In this document: in pieces, positions 13,622 to 22,988 of the stretch | Layout of the letters: every line of letters starts with the position of its first letter | Numbering within the stretch: position 1 is the first letter of the stretch | Source of the DNA: a virus | Length of the DNA: 22,988 nucleotides | Strand: one strand, 5' to 3' | IMG/VR virus record: IMGVR_UViG_3300025671_000564 | Span: 1 to 22,988 of that record | Made by a program: the position numbers and the translations under genes | Notes under the pieces: generated by a model | Seen by the model: the letters and a program-made list of their open reading frames with translations, nothing else | Told to the model about the DNA's origin: nothing | Database searches by the model: none

Positions 13622-15535
13622 TTATTCTCTAATTAATTTTCCATTCGTATAACTTGAGGTTGTAATATAGTTACTTCCGGAAATATCATTTCCGGAAGAA
13701 ATATTGTCAGGAACAGAAGTGACTGTTAGTTTATTAGTATCAAGTTGTAAATATAAATCTTGCAATCCAATGACGTCATTGGATTTTGGAGTCACTGAAA
13801 TTTCAACAATGGATTCTCCACTATCTATAACAGTTGAAACTATGTTAATTGGATTTAAAAGTACCTCACCTTTCACATAATCTACAGTTCCTACAGATTG
13901 TCTGACCTGTATTGGATTTTCGGATTCTGTTGATAATTTAAACAAAAATAGATTTCCAGTTTTCTGGTCTGGATTTGGTTTATCTGCAATATAAACTACG
14001 CCAGTAATTCCAGAAACAGAAAAACCAGAAGTTTTTATGTTGTATCCACTTAAACTATTGATATGAATTTGGTTACCAAAACAAATTTCATATTCTGCAA
14101 ATTGATTAACTGATGCTCTAAAATCCCTTCTTAAAGAAACTTTTGTAATATTTGAAGTGATTGACTTGTCACTCTGATCAATTATATTCAAAACTTTACT
14201 ATATTTAAATCTGATATCACTCTGATCAGACTCAAGAGATTTTGAATATTTTTCTAAATTAGAAATTACTTTATTTTTTGGAGTTTGACCATTATCAGTT
14301 AAGTTTTCATTATAATAAATTGTACTATCAAGTTCAATGTATAAGTATTTTAAATCAATAACATCAACTACAATTCCAGCAACAGTATATTTTCTAAGCA
14401 TATTCTTCAAATTCTGAGCTGCACTTGAAGATAAAAATGTTCCACTTTGAGGTTTGACCGCGACAAAAACTTTTCCATATCTTGGCGGATTTAAATCTTC
14501 TCCACCAAAAACGTTTACAGATTCTAATTCTGGAAAAATTCTTGGAACAATTGCCTTGAAGTCATTTGCTGTTACTGCTCTATTTTGTGAAGAGTAGTAT
14601 TTTGGCGAATAATTTCTAATTGATTGAACAGATTCAATCTCATTACCACCATAAGATGTAGTATTTGTTTCAATTGTGGAGATTCCCCTAGTAACTAAAC
14701 CAGTATTAGAGTTTAATTTTCCAGTAAAGGTAAACTGAGATAGATTATTTCCAAGTGGTCCATTAGAAACAACGTATGATGCTTTAATTAAATTATTATT
14801 TTCTAATTTATTTCCAAAAATTCCATCTCCAAAAATTAATTCATATTTTTGATCGGCAATTTCTTGAATGAAAAATATCTTTGAATCTGATTCAACATCA
14901 ATAATATCTTGTGCTAACTTATATCGAGTTGAAATCGTACTTAAAGAATTTTTAAATACAGACACTGATAAAGTGCTTATGTCAACATTTGCATTGTCAA
15001 TAATATATCTTTGAGGTGGATTAGGTATTAATGAACTTACGAAAAACTCACTTGATAACAAAGTTCCTTCACAAATTTCAATATTATCAAAGAATGCAAT
15101 TCCATTTACAACAGGAACTGTAATATCTTCTTTTATGACAAAAGTATAACTTTCCCCACTAAAATCAGATTCTGTAGTGCATACAATTCCTTTAGATAGA
15201 GTTACAATTCTTGGAATTGATGGATAATCAGATACATCAACGAAAAATGATATATTTGCTTTTGCTGCAGTTCTTGATCTTGGAACATAACCAATATTTC
15301 TTGCTAGTGAAACTACATTTTCTCTAAGAGTTGCACTATCAATAAAAACTTCACCGCTAACCATGTTAGCATTGTATGAAGAGATGTATGTATTATAAGC
15401 AAGAATATCTATCAAGACCGACAAATTCGATCCTTCAAAATCATAATCCGTAAAATCTGAACTTGATCGAAGGTAATCTTTAATTGATGACCTTATTTGA
15501 TCAAAGTCTAAGTCTGTAAAATTTATTATTGCCAT
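13622..15535 (-). CDS. gp6: Baseplate wedge subunit gp6
   Basis: 637 residues, close to T4 gp6 (660). The N-terminus (MAIINFTDLDFDQIRSSIKD, then FEGSNLSVLIDILAYNTY and NIGYVPRSRTAAKA) is the typical start of gp6 / J-like baseplate wedge proteins. In T4, gp6 dimers form the inner ring of the wedges, contact gp25 and gp53 around the hub, and transmit the sheath-contraction signal. The ATG follows the gp25 stop directly (TAAATG), so the two are probably translationally coupled. The giant gene follows after 5 bases. Family assignment is secure from motifs, length and the gp25 partner. Confidence 0.93.
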   Translation of the reverse strand: MAIINFTDLDFDQIRSSIKDYLRSSSDFTDYDFEGSNLSVLIDILAYNTYISSYNANMVSGEVFIDSATLRENVVSLARNIGYVPRSRTAAKANISFFVDVSDYPSIPRIVTLSKGIVCTTESDFSGESYTFVIKEDITVPVVNGIAFFDNIEICEGTLLSSEFFVSSLIPNPPQRYIIDNANVDISTLSVSVFKNSLSTISTRYKLAQDIIDVESDSKIFFIQEIADQKYELIFGDGIFGNKLENNNLIKASYVVSNGPLGNNLSQFTFTGKLNSNTGLVTRGISTIETNTTSYGGNEIESVQSIRNYSPKYYSSQNRAVTANDFKAIVPRIFPELESVNVFGGEDLNPPRYGKVFVAVKPQSGTFLSSSAAQNLKNMLRKYTVAGIVVDVIDLKYLYIELDSTIYYNENLTDNGQTPKNKVISNLEKYSKSLESDQSDIRFKYSKVLNIIDQSDKSITSNITKVSLRRDFRASVNQFAEYEICFGNQIHINSLSGYNIKTSGFSVSGITGVVYIADKPNPDQKTGNLFLFKLSTESENPIQVRQSVGTVDYVKGEVLLNPINIVSTVIDSGESIVEISVTPKSNDVIGLQDLYLQLDTNKLTVTSVPDNISSGNDISGSNYITTSSYTNGKLIRE

Positions 15536-15937
15536 TTATCGGGTTGGCTGTAATACAAAAACTAACTGTTGTGGTGGAACATCTATACCTATAATGTTAT
15601 ATCTAATAGTAACATTAAATTCATTGTTATCAAAATTAGGTTCAACCAAAACTTTCGTTAAAGAAACTCTTGGTTCATAAGATCTAATAGTACTTTCAAT
15701 TTGAGATTTAATTGTACTTGCAGAAATTGCATCTATATTTTCAAACAGCGACTGGCTAATGTCAGATCCAACATCTGGATTAAAAAATCTTTCCCCTGGT
15801 AGGGTTAATACTAAATTACGAACTGACCTAGCAATCGCCGTTTCATTCTTAAGAGCCAAAACATCGAAAGTCAATGGACTGACCTGAAGAGATAAACTAA
15901 TATCCTTGAATGATTTACTAATTCTCTCTAAAGGCAT
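15536..15937 (-). CDS. gp25: Baseplate wedge subunit gp25 (lysozyme-like fold)
   Basis: 133 residues against 132 in T4. The GPW/gp25 signature is visible: NETAIARSVRNLVLTLPGER then FFNPDVGSDISQSLFENID, and a C-terminal segment predicted to be beta (FNVTIRYNIIGIDVPPQQLV). gp25 is a conserved sheath-proximal wedge protein of contractile systems; despite its lysozyme-like family name it is structural. It abuts gp6 with no gap (TAAATG). A late-promoter-like AATAAATA lies about 25-32 bases upstream. No Shine-Dalgarno is evident before the ATG, which is preceded by an AT-rich stretch. Confidence 0.94.
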   Translation of the reverse strand: MPLERISKSFKDISLSLQVSPLTFDVLALKNETAIARSVRNLVLTLPGERFFNPDVGSDISQSLFENIDAISASTIKSQIESTIRSYEPRVSLTKVLVEPNFDNNEFNVTIRYNIIGIDVPPQQLVFVLQPTR

Positions 15938-17080: not shown

Positions 17081-17881
17081 TCAGATAATACGAGTCTTTT
17101 CGTGCCCAACGCGAATGCGAGGATCACACCAAATCTCATATCCCTGATCTTTTGCATCAAGACAGAAGGAAACATCCTCTCCACACATATCTTGTACTGC
17201 ACCAGATTCAAAAACTTGCATCTTCGGAGCAAACCAAGGATATTCAAGATTCTCAAAGACTCCATTCTGAATTAATACCCAACCAAATCCTGTATAATCA
17301 ACAGTAAATGGTTTCTTACGCTTACTGATACTCTCAACAGTTTCGTGATTCATCACACCACCATTGTTACGGAAATCATCTTCCTCTAACCAATGTGCTA
17401 CAGAAGTTGTACGACCATCTTCTGTCGCATACCATCCAGCAACAATACCACGCTGCTTAGATGTATCAACAACTCCTTCATCATCAATTGCTTCAGCAGG
17501 AAATGCCAAATCACAAAGTTGCCAAAACTTCTCAGTATTGAAAACAATATCACTATCAATCCATAGTTGATAATCATATTGCAACTTACCGTCCCAAGGA
17601 ACCTGATTTGGACCCCTCAGAACATTCGCACCAAGACACTTGCAACGCGCAAAGTTTACCATTGATGAATAATCTTGAGAAATCTGTATTCCACATCCAT
17701 TTTGTACAAGATCAAAACAGAGTTGAACAAATGACTTCAAGAATGTATATGAACATCCACGCCCTGGTAGACAAAATACAATGCTCTTGCCCCGCATTCT
17801 TTCCTTGATTGCATCAATATCCCAATCCTCAGATGTCTGAATACTGGGAGCTTTTGCTTTAACTGTAAATCCTTTTGCCAT
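17081..17881 (-). CDS. Glycosyltransferase, GT-A-like fold
   Basis: 266 residues. A nucleotide-sugar binding Rossmann-like start (GKSIVFCLPGRGCSYTFLKS, about 31-50) is followed by the DxD motif in YQLWIDSDIVF (D109, D111), expected to bind divalent metal and the sugar nucleotide. Later elements are GFGWVLIQNGVFE (about 198-210), a GED-type acceptor/catalytic segment (CGEDVSFCLDAKDQGYEIWC, 233-252) and a C-terminal H260. This order is standard for inverting GT-A enzymes. Such enzymes occur among cyanophage structural genes, where they may decorate virion proteins or alter host surface sugars; the substrate cannot be told. A GATAAATA late promoter lies 36 bases upstream and AAGGA about 12 bases before the ATG. 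Confidence 0.85.
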   Translation of the reverse strand: MAKGFTVKAKAPSIQTSEDWDIDAIKERMRGKSIVFCLPGRGCSYTFLKSFVQLCFDLVQNGCGIQISQDYSSMVNFARCKCLGANVLRGPNQVPWDGKLQYDYQLWIDSDIVFNTEKFWQLCDLAFPAEAIDDEGVVDTSKQRGIVAGWYATEDGRTTSVAHWLEEDDFRNNGGVMNHETVESISKRKKPFTVDYTGFGWVLIQNGVFENLEYPWFAPKMQVFESGAVQDMCGEDVSFCLDAKDQGYEIWCDPRIRVGHEKTRII

Positions 17882-17916
17882 GAGTAATAAAATCCTTCAG
17901 ATCAATTTTATCGTGT

Positions 17917-17924
17917 TATTTATC
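17917..17924 (-). promoter_or_regulatory. Late promoter-like GATAAATA upstream of the glycosyltransferase
   Basis: GATAAATA on the minus strand fits NATAAATA and lies 36 bases upstream of the glycosyltransferase ATG, leaving room for a leader with AAGGA. The gap between the 64-aa gene and the glycosyltransferase is 59 bases, so a promoter here would define a transcription unit down to the 86-aa gene. Confidence 0.5.
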
Positions 17925-17940
17925 TTTTGTAAACCCCCCT

Positions 17941-18135
17941 TCAAAACGAAGACTCAGATACTGTTTTTTTATTTACGATTAGTTCTTCGTAATTTAAATC
18001 CTCTCTCTGATACTCGCTTGAAGTCAAATCTACAAGTGTAAGTAGAGTATTCCAGGTATTGTAAAACTCATCCTCCTTGAGTGAGTAATACAAACATTTA
18101 TCCTTTGCATATATGTGATAAACTTTTTCTAACAT
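17941..18135 (-). CDS. Small 64-aa protein, unknown function
   Basis: Begins MLEKVYHIYAKDKCLYYSLK and is rich in Tyr, Glu and Asp, ending NYEELIVNKKTVSESSF. The pattern (short strands VYHIYAKDKCLYYSL, then a helix EFYNTWNTLLTLVD) resembles short proteins I know from T4-like cyanophages, none with a function. It starts 10 bases after the stop of the small membrane protein gene, so the two are probably cotranscribed. The ATG has only a weak purine stretch (AAAGA) about 10 bases upstream. Confidence 0.75.
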   Translation of the reverse strand: MLEKVYHIYAKDKCLYYSLKEDEFYNTWNTLLTLVDLTSSEYQREDLNYEELIVNKKTVSESSF

Positions 18136-18145
18136 ATTGAAATCT

Positions 18146-18301
18146 TTATTGTCTCAATGCATTATATATCATCACTACAATAGACCCAAATAAGACCATC
18201 AGCGGAAATCGAAATACATTGAATACTTTCTCAGGATATCTTATGATCCATCCCGCAAAAATAACTTTCCAAAAACTCCAATACGGTTTACGTTTACTCA
18301 T
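18146..18301 (-). CDS. Small single-pass membrane protein (51 aa)
   Basis: Translates as MSKRKPYWSFWKVIFAGWII followed by RYPEKVFNVFRFPLMVLFGS and IVVMIYNALRQ. The N-terminus is basic and aromatic; residues about 32-48 form a clear transmembrane helix, and residues 12-20 are a shorter hydrophobic stretch. The basic N-terminus suggests an N-in orientation. It is the first gene after the repeat-bearing boundary and is spaced 10 bases from the 64-aa gene. Small inner-membrane proteins of this kind are common in phages (holin-like, superinfection exclusion or membrane-stress roles), but nothing here decides between them. Confidence 0.75.
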   Translation of the reverse strand: MSKRKPYWSFWKVIFAGWIIRYPEKVFNVFRFPLMVLFGSIVVMIYNALRQ

Positions 18302-18347
18302 TCTTATATCTTAAAATTTTTTGCGCGAAATTTTTTTTATGTTTTTG

Positions 18348-18417
18348 GAATCCATAGGGCGTTTTAGAAATCCATAGAGGGTTTTAGAGGGGGTTTTAGA
18401 GGGGGTTTTAGAAATTC
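18348..18417. repeat. Short tandem repeats in the boundary region
   Basis: On the plus strand two 20-base units beginning TCCATAG (351-370 and 371-390) agree at 16 of 20 positions. They run into a 12-base unit GGGTTTTAGAGG present twice exactly (379-390, 391-402) and a third time degenerate. On the minus strand these read as TCTAAAACCC units. They lie about 50-115 bases upstream of the small membrane protein gene. No spacer structure, so not a CRISPR. Confidence 0.75.
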
Positions 18418-18545
18418 TTAGAGGCACATATAGACCTCGTGGGGGCATACTTTTATAGCTTATTGGTACCTTAAGAAAATAATATACGAGGGCCGCCTTA
18501 TACTTAAGGGGCAAACTTTTTTCTAACTGGCTGTCACGAATGCTC

Positions 18546-18576
18546 CGAACGAATGAGATATGCACCCATTCGTTCG
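18546..18576. repeat. Perfect 10-bp inverted repeat
   Basis: CGAACGAATG is followed after 11 bases by its exact reverse complement CATTCGTTCG. It lies 15 bases beyond the stop of the 78-aa gene. No T-run follows on either strand, so a standard intrinsic terminator is unlikely; an RNA 3' end structure or protein-binding site are alternatives. Confidence 0.8.
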
Positions 18577-18590
18577 TGAGGTGCTAAGTG

Positions 18591-18827
18591 TCAACGAAGG
18601 GCAGATTTGAGAGCAATCTCATCGGGGCGAAGTTGCCCTGCTTTGAGTCTACCATTGCCGCCAGTGGAGTTGTTCCAACGGGTTCCACATCCGCCAACAC
18701 GAGTCATAATCAAATCGGATTTGCGGGGTTTACGGGCAGGCAAACGAGTTACCTTCACTTTCCCCTGAATCTCTGCGATGAGAAGGTCATCGGAGGCAGC
18801 AGCAGCAAGAATCGAAAGATCAGTCAT
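18591..18827 (-). CDS. Basic 78-aa protein, unknown function
   Basis: Starts MTDLSILAAAASDDLLIAEI and continues with a basic middle (KVKVTRLPARKPRKSD) and a Gly/Asn segment (GGCGTRWNNSTGGNGRLKAG). The basic region could bind nucleic acid. There is no Shine-Dalgarno: the 45 bases upstream are pyrimidine-rich, with a T7 tract 26 bases before the ATG and CCCTCCTCTGAAA next to it. It is the last gene of the accessory block. The long open frame on the opposite strand is taken as its shadow, because this strand carries all neighbouring genes. Function unknown. Confidence 0.65.
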   Translation of the reverse strand: MTDLSILAAAASDDLLIAEIQGKVKVTRLPARKPRKSDLIMTRVGGCGTRWNNSTGGNGRLKAGQLRPDEIALKSALR

Positions 18828-18872
18828 TTTCAGAGGAGGGTATCAGTGAGAAGAAAAAAAGGTGAGCAGAGA

Positions 18873-19049
18873 TTAACCCTGCTTCCCCACGTAGTCTGTA
18901 TGTAACCCAGCAAGTTCAGCAGTGGGGTATCCATCGACGTCCCAACCACGGGTGTGAGAATTCGCTTGAGATTTACCCTTGGCAACGTTAGTCCCAACCC
19001 AGATGGTTTGGCGGGTGTTGATGTCGGTTGCCATTGTCCAGAGTGCCAT
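18873..19049 (-). CDS. Small 58-aa protein, unknown function
   Basis: Translates as MALWTMATDINTRQTIWVGT, then NVAKGKSQANSHTRGWDVDG and YPTAELAGLHTDYVGKQG. The start is fixed by a clear AAAGGAG 6 bases before the ATG. It is polar, with no membrane segment or known motif. It sits 45 bases upstream of the 78-aa gene. Codon use is GC-richer than in the structural genes, as in the rest of the right block. Confidence 0.7.
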   Translation of the reverse strand: MALWTMATDINTRQTIWVGTNVAKGKSQANSHTRGWDVDGYPTAELAGLHTDYVGKQG

Positions 19050-19133
19050 CGATTGCTCCTTTGTTTGCTTCCTGTGTATCCTACAGCATCAGGGGCACCT
19101 CAGAGCACCCCCGACACACTTTGAAATGTTGAC

Positions 19134-19304
19134 TCAGAACTCCACAGGTTGCAGAGTGGGAGTCGAAATTGCCGCATAATGTGCAGCGCACTCATTGATG
19201 TTCTGATCTTCGATTGCGGAAACCATAGTGTCAAGGATATTGAGGATTTGACTCCCATCCTGACCCTGGCGAAGCATACCGAGAAGAGTCGAACGATTGA
19301 ACAT
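19134..19304 (-). CDS. Small 56-aa helical protein, unknown function
   Basis: Translates as MFNRSTLLGMLRQGQDGSQI, then LNILDTMVSAIEDQNINECA and AHYAAISTPTLQPVEF. Two amphipathic helices (STLLGMLRQG; GSQILNILDTMVSAI) resemble the fold of short cyanobacterial and cyanophage proteins of unknown role. There is no Shine-Dalgarno; the ATG is preceded by TCTACTTTTTTTCTCAA, with the T7 tract ending 5 bases before the start. A longer overlapping frame (19100-19363) in another phase lacks a plausible protein and is rejected. Confidence 0.7.
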   Translation of the reverse strand: MFNRSTLLGMLRQGQDGSQILNILDTMVSAIEDQNINECAAHYAAISTPTLQPVEF

Positions 19305-19333
19305 TTGAGAAAAAAAGTAGAGAGTTTGGGATT

Positions 19334-19380
19334 TGCCCCGCTGTGAGAATCGAACTCACACACCGTTAAGTGTCACCAGA
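19334..19380 (-). other. tRNA 3'-half-like fragment
   Basis: The minus strand has a perfect T-arm: stem GTGAG / CTCAC around a consensus loop TTCGATT, followed by an acceptor-like AGCGGGGCA. Before it, ACAC-TTAACG-GTGT could be a type II (Leu/Ser-like) variable arm and TCTGG an anticodon-stem 3' strand. No matching CCAGA, D-arm or CCCCGCT 5' acceptor strand exists upstream, so a complete tRNA is absent. It may be a relic of recombination at a tRNA gene or a tRNA mimic. Confidence 0.45.
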
Positions 19381-19384
19381 GCAG

Positions 19385-19420
19385 AGAAGAAAGTGCCGAG
19401 TTAGAGTAGGGAACTCGGCA
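19385..19420 (-). terminator. Intrinsic terminator after ardA
   Basis: A 9-bp perfect stem (TGCCGAGTT / AACTCGGCA) with a 9-base loop begins 12 bases after the ardA stop and is followed on the minus strand by CTTTCTTCT. The U-rich but interrupted tract makes it a moderate intrinsic terminator. Confidence 0.65.
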
Positions 19421-19431
19421 ACCCTTAGAGG

Positions 19432-19863
19432 TCAGTAATCGCTGAAGATGTACACGGTGCGATAACCTACCTCGCAAGCGGTGAAGTCATAACGCAGGTT
19501 CTGATCATAGGTCGCTTCCCAGTCAACTACAACGTGGGAGGGTACATCACCATACACATCAGAGGTGAACTGTTCAGCGAAATCTGCGGTGGATTCGTAT
19601 TCACCACGATAACGCTCATCGCATCCCTCAACATCAGAAACGCAACCCATCTCACCGATGAGAGCGTCTACTGCTTCATAACCTATTGCCTCACCTACGC
19701 GCACATACTCTTCGTAATAGGCAACAAAATCATTCTCATTGTAGGTGTCAATGAACTCCAGCATGTCATCCAGAGCATAGTTCTCATCCAGCAACTCATC
19801 GATCTTCTCAACAGCATCAGCGGCGAGAAAATCTTTGTAGGAAGCAGTCAGAGTCACGGTCAT
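19432..19863 (-). CDS. ardA: ArdA-like antirestriction protein (DNA mimic)
   Basis: 143 residues from the start at 19863 (MTVTLTASYKDFLAADAVEK); the frame is open further upstream, but that part covers a promoter cassette. ArdA proteins mimic bent B-DNA and inhibit type I restriction enzymes. The C-terminal half shows the ArdA pattern: YRGEYESTADFAEQF (85-99), then DVPSHVVVDWEATYDQNLRY (106-125), matching the DVPE-x-VA-x-YFDYEAYAR-type motif of the family. By my count about 35 residues are acidic and 7 basic, as expected for a DNA mimic. It is somewhat shorter than typical ArdA (about 165), with the N-terminal domain reduced. The start has no Shine-Dalgarno. A promoter cassette lies upstream and a terminator follows, so it may be a monocistronic unit. 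Confidence 0.82.
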   Translation of the reverse strand: MTVTLTASYKDFLAADAVEKIDELLDENYALDDMLEFIDTYNENDFVAYYEEYVRVGEAIGYEAVDALIGEMGCVSDVEGCDERYRGEYESTADFAEQFTSDVYGDVPSHVVVDWEATYDQNLRYDFTACEVGYRTVYIFSDY

Positions 19864-19923
19864 TAGAGTCAAGAATGAGGTTGAAATCAGCGGGTTGGGT
19901 TTCCCTTTCCCCCTGATGCAATC

Positions 19924-20000
19924 AGTATGGCACGGCAGGGGGAGCATCGGGGGGTTTGGTGTGCAGTTACCCAACTGGTCGGGCAGCTGGGGAGTTTGTG
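19924..20000 (-). promoter_or_regulatory. Recurrent promoter cassette, copy 4 (upstream of ardA)
   Basis: Minus-strand order over 77 bases: CACAAACT box, CCCCAGCTGCCC, GACCAGTTG, CACACCAAACCCCCC, a C-rich stretch and an extended -10 TGCCATACT. The elements match the copy at 22737-22814 in order and spacing. The -35 is not recognisable here. Expected start of transcription is about 19917, giving ardA a leader of about 54 bases. Confidence 0.65.
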
Positions 20001-20013
20001 TCAGAAACTCCCC
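19989..20013 (-). other. Perfect hairpin after the 61-aa gene
   Basis: GGGGAGTTT and AAACTCCCC form a perfect 9-bp stem with a 7-base loop, starting 10 bases after the 61-aa gene's stop. There is no U-tract, so it may be an RNA 3' stabilising or processing structure rather than a simple terminator. Its 3' arm overlaps the first box of the promoter cassette. Confidence 0.6.
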
Positions 20014-20023
20014 GTACTATGGG

Positions 20024-20209
20024 TCACACAGGCAGCGAATCGTTCTCATCCAGTATACCGAACGAAATCTCAAAACCACTGTGGGTGGGATAGATTCCGA
20101 AGTAAAGTTTACCCAACCCGAATGCCAGTAACTCATCACCAGAGCGGGCAGATGTATCCAACCCGAAGTAAGCGAAGCGGGAGAGATTGTAGGGAGTTTG
20201 GAGTCGCAT
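20024..20209 (-). CDS. Small 61-aa protein, unknown function
   Basis: Begins MRLQTPYNLSRFAYFGLDTS and has an aromatic, Gly-rich middle (FGLGKLYFGIYPTHSGFEIS) suggesting a small beta sheet; ends DENDSLPV. No domain recognised. The start at 20209 is preceded by CTTCTTTTTTCCA, with no Shine-Dalgarno; an alternative ATG 33 bases upstream would overlap the preceding gene. It follows the 64-aa gene after 23 bases and is the last gene of its unit before the hairpin. Confidence 0.68.
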   Translation of the reverse strand: MRLQTPYNLSRFAYFGLDTSARSGDELLAFGLGKLYFGIYPTHSGFEISFGILDENDSLPV

Positions 20210-20232
20210 TGGAAAAAAGAAGTTTGTGAGAA

Positions 20233-20427
20233 TCAAAGACACATCTGATGCATTACATCAGTTTCGATCTGTTTGAGTACATCACCGTTCCACATTTCGG
20301 AAATGATGTCACCTTCCTCAGTGTACAATTCACTCACCCAGTAATCGTGAAGCATTGCGTTTGTATCATTGAGATTCTCCAATCCCTGATAGATGGAGGA
20401 AACAATTTCGGAATCGTAGATGAACAT
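20233..20427 (-). CDS. Small acidic 64-aa protein, unknown function
   Basis: Begins MFIYDSEIVSSIYQGLENLN and ends with a helix rich in Glu and Asp (EEGDIISEMWNGDVLKQIET). Acidic, soluble, mostly helical. The ATG is preceded by CCTCACTTTTTTTCTA with no Shine-Dalgarno; the T7 tract ends 3 bases before the start. It lies 26 bases after the 86-aa gene and 23 bases before the 61-aa gene, so all three share a unit. No family recognised; an acidic partner-binding or inhibitor role is only a guess. Confidence 0.7.
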   Translation of the reverse strand: MFIYDSEIVSSIYQGLENLNDTNAMLHDYWVSELYTEEGDIISEMWNGDVLKQIETDVMHQMCL

Positions 20428-20453
20428 TAGAAAAAAAGTGAGGGTGGAAAGAG

Positions 20454-20714
20454 TCAGGAAACGCGGGCAGAATCCCACACATTCCAGAAACAATCCCACG
20501 CCCATTCATCAGCAACGAAGGTATCAATCCCCACCTGATCACAAACCCAATCGTATGCTTCCTCACAACCAAGTTGAGTCTCACCCATAAAGTTGTAGAG
20601 GGAAGCAATCACCTCACGGAACTTTTGGTTCTCCATTTGTGACAGAAACACCTTGCCAGTTTCGGTGTTGCGGATGATCATTTGCCCTTCGATGTTGTGA
20701 GCGGCGTAGAACAT
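20454..20714 (-). CDS. 86-aa acidic/aromatic protein, unknown function
   Basis: Starts at 20714 (MFYAAHNIEGQMIIRNTETG), chosen because GAGGA lies 10 bases upstream and the longer open frame would run through the promoter cassette. Then a helical part (KFREVIASLYNFMGETQLGC) and a Trp/Asp-rich C-terminus (DEWAWDCFWNVWDSARVS). There are two Cys in the middle but no zinc-binding arrangement I can defend. First gene of a three-gene unit with the 64- and 61-aa genes, probably driven by the cassette at 20741-20820. Confidence 0.7.
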   Translation of the reverse strand: MFYAAHNIEGQMIIRNTETGKVFLSQMENQKFREVIASLYNFMGETQLGCEEAYDWVCDQVGIDTFVADEWAWDCFWNVWDSARVS

Positions 20715-20740
20715 TCGGTTGCTTTCCTCAGTACTTTTTA

Positions 20741-20820
20741 AGAATACAGGATGGGGGCGCCCTTTAGGGGGTTTGGTGTGCGGTTCGGCAACTGGCACAG
20801 GGGCAGCTGCCCAGTTTGTG
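20741..20820 (-). promoter_or_regulatory. Recurrent promoter cassette, copy 3
   Basis: Minus-strand order over 80 bases: CACAAACT, palindromic GGGCAGCTGCCC, CCAGTTG, CACACCAAACCCCC, C-rich stretch, and an extended -10-like TGTATTCT in place of TGCCATACT. The -10 gives an expected start near 20734 and a leader of about 20 bases carrying GAGGA before the 86-aa gene. Confidence 0.6.
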
Positions 20821-20920
20821 ACACTTAAGGCAGAATGAAATAAGTTCACCAGAGGTGCCTAGAATCGCCCGGAGGGTGTTTCTAAGGTGCTCAAGGTGTC
20901 AGAGTACCCGATAACACTTT

Positions 20921-21133
20921 TCAGAGGAATTCTGCCATCAAATAGTCCACTGTGATTTCCAATTCTGCTGCCATTCTTTCTAGCTCTTGGTCAACAATAG
21001 TAGATCGGTGAGTGCCATCAATAGCACCATTCTTTTGCTCTTCGTGTTCAATGAAAAGGTCAGCAGTTTCGTTAGTCACTTGACAACAGTCTCCAATTGT
21101 GTGTATAATGTGCCTTGTCACCGATGATGACAA
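20921..21133 (-). CDS. 70-aa acidic protein, non-ATG start, unknown function
   Basis: From a TTG at 21133 the protein reads (M)SSSVTRHIIHTIGDCCQVTN and continues through an acidic helical part to ELERMAAELEITVDYLMAEF. The first in-frame ATG is far downstream, so the start is TTG (21133) or GTG (21121). It starts 8 bases after the preceding gene's stop, which favours translation by coupling. No domain recognised. After its stop, about 100 bases are empty before the promoter cassette. Confidence 0.6.
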   Translation of the reverse strand: MSSSVTRHIIHTIGDCCQVTNETADLFIEHEEQKNGAIDGTHRSTIVDQELERMAAELEITVDYLMAEFL

Positions 21134-21141
21134 TCAAGACT

Positions 21142-21351
21142 CTAAGTTACTACAGATTCTTTAAGTTGCTCTGCGGGATAGTTGAAGAGTTTATTAATCC
21201 TTTCAATTTCACTCTCAAAAAACTCCATTGCCTCCAAAGGTTCAATGTCATAAGTGTTAGCAAGTTCATCAAGTTTCCATCTCAAGTCATCCATCTCCAA
21301 AAGTTGTGTGAGAATGAATAACCGAACTTCGTGCTTTTGATTGTTCTTCAT
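21142..21351 (-). CDS. 69-aa acidic helical protein, unknown function
   Basis: Reads MKNNQKHEVRLFILTQLLEM, then DDLRWKLDELANTYDIEPLE and AMEFFESEIERINKLFNYPA. It is almost entirely helical by appearance and acidic. The ATG overlaps the stop of the preceding gene by one base (TGATG), a typical translational-coupling arrangement that settles the start. No family recognised. Confidence 0.75.
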   Translation of the reverse strand: MKNNQKHEVRLFILTQLLEMDDLRWKLDELANTYDIEPLEAMEFFESEIERINKLFNYPAEQLKESVVT

Positions 21352-21542
21352 CAGGCAGCAGCAAGGATTGCGGATTCCATTACAACCTCACGAACATCCA
21401 TCAGAGAGTAATCATAACCCTCCTTTTCTTCTAGATGGACAAGGTAAGCATTTGCGGTAGAGAAACAGTCAAACAAGCGAAGGGATTTGAAGTCTTCACC
21501 TTCGTAATCCCAACCACCAATCACCGCGTAAACCTTAGTCAT
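21351..21542 (-). CDS. Small 63-aa protein, unknown function
   Basis: Begins MTKVYAVIGGWDYEGEDFKS, continues RLFDCFSTANAYLVHLEEKE and ends MDVREVVMESAILAAA. The IGGWDYEGEDFKSLRLF strand-turn-strand followed by a helix (STANAYLVHLEE) recalls small proteins I have seen in cyanophages, of unknown function. The start at 21542 has GGAG three bases upstream; the frame extends further upstream into the promoter and is not used. First gene of a unit with the 69- and 70-aa genes, under the promoter at 21568-21596. Confidence 0.75.
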   Translation of the reverse strand: MTKVYAVIGGWDYEGEDFKSLRLFDCFSTANAYLVHLEEKEGYDYSLMDVREVVMESAILAAA

Positions 21543-21567
21543 TTGCTCCGTTTCCGTTTGAGTCCTT

Positions 21568-21627
21568 AGTATGGCAGGTCTCAGGGGGAACCTCAAGGGG
21601 TCTTGTGCCAGTGCCTCAGGTGGCACA
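21568..21627 (-). promoter_or_regulatory. Promoter with partial cassette, copy 2
   Basis: Minus strand: -35 TTGAGG (21591-21596), 17-base spacer, extended -10 TGCCATACT (-10 hexamer CATACT at 21568-21573), then AAGG as in copy 1. CACAAGACCCCTTGAGG is shared with copy 1 but the CACAAACT box is missing; in its place is a 7-bp hairpin (TGTGCCA / TGGCACA) that covers the end of the upstream 73-aa gene. Leader about 18-20 bases with GGAG. Confidence 0.65.
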
Positions 21628-21837
21628 GTGGTCATAGGAATGAGTCTCAACATAATGCCAACCTACAGCAGTTGCATCCTCCCGTGAGAAAAACTTACCA
21701 TGAGTTGTTAATGTTTTGTAGTGATGGCGAATGACTCCATCAGGATGCATTTCGCTGTTTTTGTATACCCAAACATTGTAACCATGCTTTCCTTTGTTGA
21801 CTTTGATTGGTGATGGATTTCCGCCTTTGATAATCAT
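21616..21837 (-). CDS. 73-aa protein coupled to the ligase-like gene, unknown function
   Basis: Reads MIIKGGNPSPIKVNKGKHGY, then NVWVYKNSEMHPDGVIRHHY and a C-terminus rich in His and Thr (GWHYVETHSYDHCAT). Basic N-terminal part, alternating strands, no known domain. Its ATG overlaps the stop of the ligase-like gene by four bases (ATGA), so the two are translationally coupled and may act together. Its last codons also form one arm of the hairpin ahead of the next promoter. Confidence 0.75.
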   Translation of the reverse strand: MIIKGGNPSPIKVNKGKHGYNVWVYKNSEMHPDGVIRHHYKTLTTHGKFFSREDATAVGWHYVETHSYDHCAT

Positions 21838-22730
21838 TTGGCAACCTGAAAACGACCAGAGTTAAAGTTTGCGTGGGAGAATACTTCCCTGTTCACTAGT
21901 TTGAAAGACCCGAACTCATTGGAGAGAACGTATCCTTCAGCATCAATTCTGTCTTGCCCAATGTAAGCAGCAGGTCCATCATTGCGACAGATAAAGACAC
22001 AATCGTCTTTGATGCTCTTTACCAACAACCAGAACTCAATCAACAGTCGATCACAATCAAAGTCCTCAGGGTTGATGACACGCTGTTCACGAATGCAAGC
22101 ATTAAGTTGTTGCTTGATCTTTACTGCTTCCTTGTCAGAAACAAAGTTGACCACAGTGGACATTTGGCGAGCAAACTTTACCACTTCCTCAACATCAGCA
22201 AAGGAAGTTTGACCGTGCTGAATGTAAGCATTGGGTTTCACAAACAGACACTCATCAGTGCTGTCCAGATTGACAGTCAAAGGAATTGCCCAACTATCAC
22301 GAAGGTCGTCGTTTGCTTCATAACGAGTGTGAGGTGCCACGATGACCTTTTGCTCTACGATTTCAGGAAAGACGTAAGTGATCGTGTTGGGACAAAAAGT
22401 ATCAGACCCGCTAAAACCAATAAAATCACCTTGGATGATAGAATCGGTGCGAGGTAGACAATCAAAGCAAGCGTGAAGAATAGTCGCAACTTCACCTTGA
22501 TAGAAGAGGTCAATTTCTTCATGATTGTGGGCGATACGAATCTTTTTCTTGTTAAAAACTGCTTTAGTTCCTACAAAGAACTCACCGCAGGCAGGGTCGA
22601 TTCCCCATACGATTGCGGGGGCACCATCAATCTTGACCGAAAGGTTGCCAGCAGCAGTGAACCAATCCAGAACAGAAAAATCTCCATTTAAGATGCTGTC
22701 TTCGGGGTGTTCGAGGTGTTTGTTTTGCAT
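21834..22730 (-). CDS. Ligase/nucleotidyltransferase-like protein (DUF6267-like)
   Basis: 298 residues from 22730 (MQNKHLEHPEDSILNGDFSV). Residues 32-58 (VKIDGAPAIVWGIDP, then FFVGTKAVF) resemble a marine phage family I recall as DUF6267. The order of motifs mirrors covalent nucleotidyltransferases (DNA/RNA ligases): K33-x-D-G as motif I, IIQGDFIGF (98-106) in the motif III position, AEGYVL (264-269) as motif IV, and FKLVN (276-280) as a motif V candidate. If active, K33 would carry AMP or GMP. The C-terminus (REVFSHANFNSGRF) is also family-like. Whether it joins nucleic acid ends is not shown. The start is chosen by LEHPED, which begins the family homology; the frame extends to 22763, but through the promoter. 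The 73-aa gene overlaps by 4 bases. Confidence 0.72.
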   Translation of the reverse strand: MQNKHLEHPEDSILNGDFSVLDWFTAAGNLSVKIDGAPAIVWGIDPACGEFFVGTKAVFNKKKIRIAHNHEEIDLFYQGEVATILHACFDCLPRTDSIIQGDFIGFSGSDTFCPNTITYVFPEIVEQKVIVAPHTRYEANDDLRDSWAIPLTVNLDSTDECLFVKPNAYIQHGQTSFADVEEVVKFARQMSTVVNFVSDKEAVKIKQQLNACIREQRVINPEDFDCDRLLIEFWLLVKSIKDDCVFICRNDGPAAYIGQDRIDAEGYVLSNEFGSFKLVNREVFSHANFNSGRFQVAK

Positions 22731-22736
22731 GACCTT

Positions 22737-22814
22737 AGTATGGCACGAAATCGGGGGGTCCACAAGGGGTCTTGTGACACTCTCTCAACTGGTTGGGCAG
22801 CCGCCGAGTTTGTG
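22737..22814 (-). promoter_or_regulatory. Recurrent promoter cassette, copy 1 (best preserved)
   Basis: Minus-strand order over 78 bases: CACAAACT, CGGCGGCTGCCC, AACCAGTTG, a second AGTGTCACAA box, the palindrome CACAAGACCCCTTGTG, C-rich stretch, and extended -10 TGCCATACT. The -35 TTGTGG (22760-22765) is 17 bases from CATACT (22737-22742), ideal sigma70 spacing. The expected start lies at or next to the ATG of the ligase-like gene. Confidence 0.7.
22761..22776 (-). promoter_or_regulatory. Operator-like palindrome over the -35 box
   Basis: CACAAG-ACCC-CTTGTG is a perfect 6-bp inverted repeat with a 4-base centre; its left half on the plus strand overlaps the -35 hexamer. A degenerate copy (CACAAGACCCCTTGAG) occupies the same place in copy 2. 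This placement is typical of a repressor site. Confidence 0.5.
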
Positions 22815-22824
22815 ACACTAACTC

Positions 22825-22988
22825 TCAAACATTTGCCAACTCATGAAGTTTATCAACCTCCTTAGGATTCCAGGTGCTAAACATAGTCACACCGTTCAAA
22901 ACACGCCCCATAGTATCAAGATCAGTCTCAGGATTGTCTAACACTTCATCCATACCAATACACATTAGTTTGTGGACAATAGCGAAGG
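22825..22988 (-). CDS. Unknown protein, C-terminal 53 residues (partial)
   Basis: An open frame enters from the right edge and ends at 22825. The visible part reads FAIVHKLMCIGMDEVLDNPE, then TDLDTMGRVLNGVTMFSTWN and PKEVDKLHELANV. Acidic with helical stretches; not recognised. Internal ATG codons exist, so the true length could be as short as about 46 residues. The promoter cassette begins 10 bases after its stop. Confidence 0.6.
   Translation of the reverse strand, partial: FAIVHKLMCIGMDEVLDNPETDLDTMGRVLNGVTMFSTWNPKEVDKLHELANV

Follow-up and report, generated by a model that had tools for sequence, protein, structure and literature searches.

In the 22,988-base IMG/VR record IMGVR_UViG_3300025671_000564, analysed here in its entirety and referred to as the window, a cassette of about 80 bp recurs three times on the minus strand, each time in front of a different gene. 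The source of the window is a T4-like cyanophage, and the cassette is very probably an early-promoter cassette of Synechococcus T4-like phages (Kyanoviridae), positioned before small accessory genes. It would typically stand ahead of such genes, or of short runs of them, in the hypervariable block upstream of gp25-gp6. An earlier sequence-only reading of this DNA had proposed a dispersed regulatory cassette that co-regulates unrelated small genes or moves together with gene units.

All three copies lie on the minus strand in intergenic regions and carry the same ordered parts. Copy 1 (19915-20003) consists of a 5′ box CACAAACT (19993-20000), located in the 3′ arm of GGGGAGTTT-CTGACAC-AAACTCCCC, a GCTGCCC core (19981-19989), a CCAGTTG box (19972-19978), CACA with a C-run (19950-19964) and an extended -10, TGC CATACT (CATACT at 19924-19929). 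Copy 2 (20733-20823) repeats this order with CACAAACT at 20813-20820, the core at 20801-20811, CCAGTTG at 20789-20795, CACA with its C-run at 20767-20781 and the -10 TATTCT at 20741-20746. Copy 3 (22728-22816) has the corresponding parts at 22807-22814, 22795-22804, 22786-22792 and 22766-22780, followed by an extended -10, TGC CATACT (CATACT at 22737-22742), with TTGTGG (22760-22765) 17 nt upstream. Measured from the start of CACAAACT to the end of the -10, the copies are 77, 80 and 78 bases long, so that the elements and lengths given by the sequence-only reading hold in full. The genes behind them belong to different families. Copy 1 is the predicted promoter of an ArdA-like anti-restriction gene (19432-19863, minus strand; phrog_36653, E 9.5e-42; 20.8 bits against PF07275, under the family cut-off of 27), with a 54-nt leader from the predicted +1 at 19917. 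Copy 2 is predicted to drive a phrog_714 gene (20454-20714, minus strand; E 5.6e-23) through a 20-nt leader with the Shine-Dalgarno (SD) word GAGGAAAG ahead of the ATG. Copy 3 would serve a DUF6267 gene (phrog_455; 21834-22730, minus strand; PF19782 E 8.2e-79, phrog_455 E 2.9e-118), where the -10 is followed by 6 nt and the ATG; the start codon coincides with the predicted +1, and the transcript is predicted to be leaderless.

The three main copies exceed chance. The pattern CACAAACTNNNCNGCNGCC, which was derived from these copies, has three matches in the window and none in 100 shuffles. A profile hidden Markov model (HMM) whose 80 seeds exclude the copies of the window recovers copy 1 at 49.6 bits (E 5e-15), copy 2 at 31.4 bits (E 2.4e-9) and copy 3 at 47.7 bits (E 1.9e-14); in 100 Markov resamples of 17501-22988 no score exceeds 10.7 bits. 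A fourth site (21564-21618, minus strand) has the promoter half, with GGCACAAGACCCC and TTGAGG-17-CATACT, as the sequence-only reading had noted, and shares 75% identity with copy 3 across 60 bp (repeat family D8); on its own it is not significant under the same HMM (5.8 bits, E 0.23, within the resample range), and it is plausibly a further cassette. At 19078-19083 (minus strand), TGCTGTAGGAT stands upstream of a gene starting at 19049, as in the cassettes of contigs L205 and L239. This site, which the HMM does not list, may possibly be a fifth promoter of the cassette kind.

Judged from sequence comparisons, the cassette is not private to the phage of the window and is common to many marine Synechococcus viruses. 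Scanning IMG/VR with a pattern of the 5′ half returned at least 120 stretches, and about 15 loci among the matches listed carry the cassette or a variant, most of the matches listed being chance coding matches by eye; a stricter 5′ pattern returned 27 stretches and a 3′-half pattern 70. When one copy was compared with named phages by a loose BLAST (E 10), 52 of the 53 records obtained were cyanophages, and a BLAST of another copy gave 174, of which 172 are named Synechococcus phage or Cyanophage. A profile scan of related cyanophages is a check that the sequence-only reading had suggested; here, model R1, built on sequence only from 25 copies (among them window copy 1, which scores 55.6 bits), produced 56 matches at E<=0.01 in 14 of 19 records. 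These include 14 of 16 Kyanoviridae genomes and none of the three phage controls T4, RB49 and Ma-LMM01; eight of the 56 matches, in S-T4, are four places counted at both record ends. As a sequence, the proposed dispersed cassette is supported, recurring in these genomes and in many IMG/VR contigs with different genes behind it. Orientation is nearly uniform, with R1 places on one strand within each record (14 of 14 records) and only three of 238 copies opposing the majority strand of their contig (97 contigs, 26 with a single copy). Among cellular genomes the 5′ pattern was found in 13 stretches, and the rest of the cassette was in none of them by reading, the 3′ half itself not having been scanned there; that half could conceivably have come from a host.

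The anatomy of the cassette was compared across 262 copy contexts (nhmmer copies near contig ends were dropped), of which 164 remained once those at least 85% alike had been taken out; L001, L002 and L161-L173 were excluded as duplicates or stubs. The HMM seeds are among these 164 copies, and the copies are not independent. In general, a CAGTTG and a TGTCCAC-like box stand 12 bp apart, and the copies further share a C-rich stretch as well as an extended -10 with a purine 7 nt beyond it. Of the 164 copies, 132 have a CAGTTG-like box, which in 116 lies between -47 and -49 relative to the -10, and 150 have a TGTCCAC-like box, which in 137 lies between -35 and -37. The presence of the boxes is biased, since they were used in retrieval, while their distance to the -10 was not required in the pattern scans. 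TG precedes the -10 by 0-2 nt in 133 of 164 copies, under a picking rule that slightly favoured TG. A consensus -35 at a distance of 16-18 nt is confined to a subset (at least 4 of 6 matches in 36/164, about 8% in shuffles), and the filing under sigma-70 therefore rests on the -10 and the boxes. The cassette thus reads as a sigma-70-type early promoter in which the -35 is mostly replaced by an upstream factor; we infer promoter activity, an activator and, from the location among small accessory genes, early timing.

In the proposed mechanism, the extended -10 (of the TGN CATACT or TATAAT type) would be recognised by host RNA polymerase carrying its main sigma factor, while the TGTCCAC-like box, about 47 bp upstream of the start, and the CAGTTG-like box, about 60 bp upstream, probably form an activator site that substitutes for the -35 absent in most copies. 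The 5′ half (CACAAACT...GCTGCC) would be a module that not every copy has, placed close to the stop codon of the gene before. Cyanomyoviruses are without alt, modA, modB and motA, and their early genes are believed to be transcribed by host polymerase in unmodified form (PMC2984593), which fits the use of such a polymerase at the cassette; according to the same review, S-RSM4 yielded no sigma-70-like early motifs. In L132 (8252), L143 (10492) and L084 (1906), an AT-rich hairpin, TGTGGAA...TTCCACA, comes after the 5′ box AACACAAACTGGTCAGCYGCC and replaces the usual dyad.

Transcription would begin at a fixed purine 7 nt past the -10, and in about a third of copies this purine would be the A of the start codon, giving a leaderless mRNA, while most other copies would have a leader of 14-23 nt. 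Distances to the first open ATG could be taken for 147 copies, 17 of the 164 having no open ATG within 60 nt. The distance is exactly 6 nt in 46 of the 147 and 20-29 nt in 83, with none at 5 or at 7-11 nt. Over all 164 copies an ATG stands 6 nt after the -10 in 48, where 200 shuffles give 2.1 on average and never more than 8, and the -10 was picked without use of the ATG. From an ATG fixed at this position we infer leaderless 5′ ends, so that the early mRNAs concerned are predicted to be leaderless, their first codons being rich in A (for example ATGAACAAAACA). Among the leaderless-spaced copies, A makes up 61% of codons 2-5, against 29%, and C is the base ahead of the ATG in 46 of 48. A separate mark of the fixed +1 comes from the 116 copies without an ATG there, 109 of which have A or G at that place. 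No SD-like word precedes the ATG in the 46 leaderless-spaced copies; this contrast with the leadered copies is modest, because only 28 of those 83 have such a word. The 48 copies are not independent and fall by N-terminus (by eye) into about 15 gene families, 13 of the copies being DUF6267. Within DUF6267, the leadered protein of S-SRM01 begins MKNLHLQHPED and the leaderless one of L217 begins MKNTHLQHPED, and this agreement supports the leaderless start. GenBank places starts at such ATGs for SBM3_00006 of S-BM3, _079 and _080 of S-RIM44, Syn1_078 and _072 of S-CAM3; by contrast, the annotated start of Syn1_081 lies inside its own cassette.

The window alone displays three predicted forms, namely the 54-nt leader of copy 1, the 20-nt SD leader of copy 2 and the leaderless start of copy 3. 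In L218, L253, L254 and L123 (near 2944), a GC hairpin stands at the predicted 5′ end of the mRNA, e.g., ATCGGGGGC...GCCCCC, and is perhaps protective. Phage transcripts are said in general terms to be often leaderless (PMC5312081), while a literature search, with most subscription papers outside its scope, found no report of leaderless early mRNAs in cyanophages. The fuller proposal, that there is a single early-promoter class in which about a third of genes have their start codon fused to the +1 and the others keep a leader of 14-23 nt or a longer one, and that the same cassette is a joint for swapping genes, has in our estimate an even chance of being right.

Evidence for exchange at the cassettes comes from pairs of related genomes. 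In L239, two cassettes (at 2312- and 1627-) frame a gene of 203 amino acids, while L229 has one cassette whose 5′ half is that of the first and whose 3′ half is that of the second; the flanks of this exchange are about 90% identical, and the overlap is 19 bp. The S-RIM44 isolates W2_10_0709 and W2_07_0710 differ in that 26 bp take the place of a gene-bearing 305-bp piece, with flanks of 98.8 and 99.5% identity; the right-hand identity restarts at the 5′ edge of the cassette, and the left-hand junction is at the end of the preceding gene. Across 97 contigs (L174-L203 were also excluded from this test), 50 clustered indels give 100 breakpoints, with 51 in coding sequence, 32 in other intergenic sequence and 17 in cassettes. 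The intergenic breakpoints in cassettes (17 of 49, where 11.7% were expected) are thus enriched (p 2e-5, for events that are not independent). Homologous recombination between copies would add or remove gene units, which is possible because the same ~80 bp recurs in direct orientation, and these junctions suggest that cassettes can be recombination joints. By eye, the 203-amino-acid gene of L239 resembles a PD-(D/E)XK nuclease, and the small-gene block of S-BM3 contains an annotated restriction endonuclease.

Several observations weigh against reading the cassette as a general early promoter and swap joint. The 5′ half, represented by the CAAACT box, lies upstream in only 13 of 61 copies retrieved through the 3′ half (a count that includes L224 and L256, coding hits excluded from the HMM seeds), so the full 80-bp unit, which describes the three window copies well, is not the general form. 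A generic sigma-70 promoter and terminator scan does not list the three window copies, and the first open ATG falls outside both distance peaks in 18 of 147 copies, 10 of these at 0-4 nt. R1 finds no match in P-SSM2 and S-SM2; six of the 16 genomes (Syn1, S-RIM44, S-CAM3, S-CAM1, S-SCSM1 and S-T4) had already been seen in the cassette BLAST, and S-RIM44 contributed one training copy to R1. Among the ten Kyanoviridae genomes not seen beforehand, R1 matches eight. R1 also matches seven of 11 bacterial genomes at E<=0.01, with a best score of 21.8 bits, in a control made up of 11 of the 13 cellular genomes above (L144 and L145 left out), which were chosen for containing the 5′ pattern and scored at a maximum of 150 candidates per genome. 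Five of these seven matches are limited to the 5′ part of the model, and one covers model positions 4-88 at 21.8 bits. With this best bacterial score as the limit, 12 of the 16 Kyanoviridae phages stay; Syn9 keeps only one (23.2 bits) of its five matches at 46.3-53.1 kb, and S-RSM4 two of five. For gene exchange, 34 of the 50 clustered indels lie clear of any cassette, and a single one both starts and ends in cassettes. The idea that the cassette moves with gene units therefore stands in part, through the breakpoint enrichment, one clean two-cassette exchange and the S-RIM44 replacement, and cassettes are one exchange route and not the rule.

Four other explanations were weighed. The one with most in its favour, although on balance we doubt it, is that the cassette is a strict T4-type promoter-early stem-loop (PeSL) element, that is, a terminator hairpin with an early promoter whose main role is modular shuffling. 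Cassettes do sit between genes of the hypervariable block, and the breakpoint enrichment, the L229/L239 exchange inside two cassettes and the S-RIM44 replacement ending at a cassette edge are what such an element would leave behind; some copies also have terminators directly upstream (GGGGCATTCGTGCCCC, then TTTCTTT). The hairpin itself is the difficulty, since a GC-rich hairpin of at least 6 pairs occurs in only 25 of 164 copies (shuffles predict about 10), a hairpin followed by T's in four (0.4 expected), and RNAalifold finds no shared structure. Because most copies are without the hairpin terminator and no RNA structure is shared, the cassette is not filed as PeSL. Puxty et al. (2015) judged PeSL unlikely to explain the ORFanage of S-PM2 (PMC4503421).

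The same folding results bear on whether the cassette is a structured RNA or riboswitch-like leader instead of a promoter. Some copies can be folded (AACTGGTCGG-CTGC-CCGACCAGTT), and window copy 1 has a z of -2.0, but there are no consensus pairs, single folds differ between copies and no Rfam match was found in the stretches searched. The conserved stretch also lies upstream of the -10, and the cassette's own promoter therefore would not transcribe it, which leaves this explanation highly improbable. Only marginally better placed, and still very unlikely, is a self-spreading mobile DNA element, similar to miniature inverted-repeat transposable elements (MITEs) or repetitive extragenic palindromic (REP) sequences, in which the promoter would be incidental. 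It would account for many similar short dispersed copies, but terminal inverted repeats and target duplications were unseen in the aligned copies (by eye, no program search), the copies keep to one strand, and their spacing to the -10 and to the start codon is fixed. Finally, GC-rich intergenic stretches with C-runs could resemble one another by chance. For the three main copies this has next to no likelihood and is already refuted by the shuffles and by their recovery with the HMM built without them; the fourth site could still be such a likeness. An early-promoter cassette that can also act as a recombination joint is the reading we prefer.

The surroundings of the cassettes in the window agree with this placement. 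The baseplate genes gp25 and gp6 (13622-15937, minus strand) border the block, with gp25 (15536-15937, minus strand) identified by phrog_261 (E 7.4e-54) and gp6 by position; the open reading frames after gp25 are arranged like gp6 and the giant structural protein in S-RIM44, and the baseplate gene order at the border matches Syn1, S-RIM44 and S-CAM3. Upstream of gp25 is a minus-strand block of small genes with the three copies inside, about 4-7 kb from gp25, compared with 3-12 kb upstream in Syn1, S-RIM44 and S-CAM3. A hyperplastic location, a small-gene block upstream of gp25-gp6, is thus shared by all four. A tRNA scan found none. Between the gp25 side and the small-gene block are short tandem repeats, GTTTTAGAAATCCATAGAGC and GGGTTTTAGAGG (18341-18412), and an intergenic inverted repeat, CGAACGAATG...CATTCGTTCG, was spotted by eye at 18546-18576. 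On the plus strand, opposite to the genes, a perfect TTGACA-18-TATAAT (12/12) lies at 21080-21109; an antisense RNA could start from it at about 21115.

Function has yet to be assigned to most of the small accessory genes that cyanophages carry, and their regulation and exchange are largely open questions. A cassette recognisable from sequence points to candidate early genes in contigs from uncultured phages, allows start codons called too far upstream to be corrected and makes leaderless translation in infected Synechococcus a testable claim. It would be one route, and not the sole one, of gene turnover upstream of gp25-gp6. If the fuller proposal above is true, an incoming gene would acquire its timing and its mode of translation in one exchange.

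The sequence-only reading knew of no described element of this form in cyanophages, which is probably wrong for the promoter half. Doron et al. reportedly described in 2016 (ISME J 10:1437), for Syn9 and P-TIM40, a novel early-gene element that controls early genes and is conserved among T4-like cyanophages. The promoter half is probably this element, and the R1 matches in Syn9 and in 14 of 16 Kyanoviridae genomes agree with such a distribution. The 5′ CACAAACT/GCTGCC half, the 6-nt ATG spacing and the junction evidence are not known to be part of that work; the additions beyond the probably known promoter half are thus the leaderless class and the junctions. A Ma-LMM01 study, citing Doron among others, describes three temporal classes and no T4-like middle promoters (PMC5780444).

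With T4 early promoters the cassette shares an extended, sigma-70-based architecture and a position that is also ahead of novel open reading frames, while it differs in its GC-rich boxes and in mostly having no -35; the early promoters described for five relatives of T4 have both a GTTTAC-like -35 and an UP-like region rich in A (PMC1524935). The cassette resembles PeSL in placing an early promoter between genes of a hyperplastic region and in that its copies may serve as recombination joints, but the stem-loop terminator is absent from most of its copies and R1 has no match in T4 or RB49. The PeSL cassettes of T4-like phages are said to have been described by Arbiol et al. in 2010 and Comeau et al. 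in 2014 (cited in PMC4503421). The leaderless copies have a counterpart in lambda cI, whose leaderless mRNA starts at the AUG, and the likeness lies in a predicted +1 that is the A of the ATG. What would set the cassette apart from other leaderless mRNAs is a recognisable early-promoter class in which start codons are fixed to the +1 and leaderless members are mixed with leadered ones.

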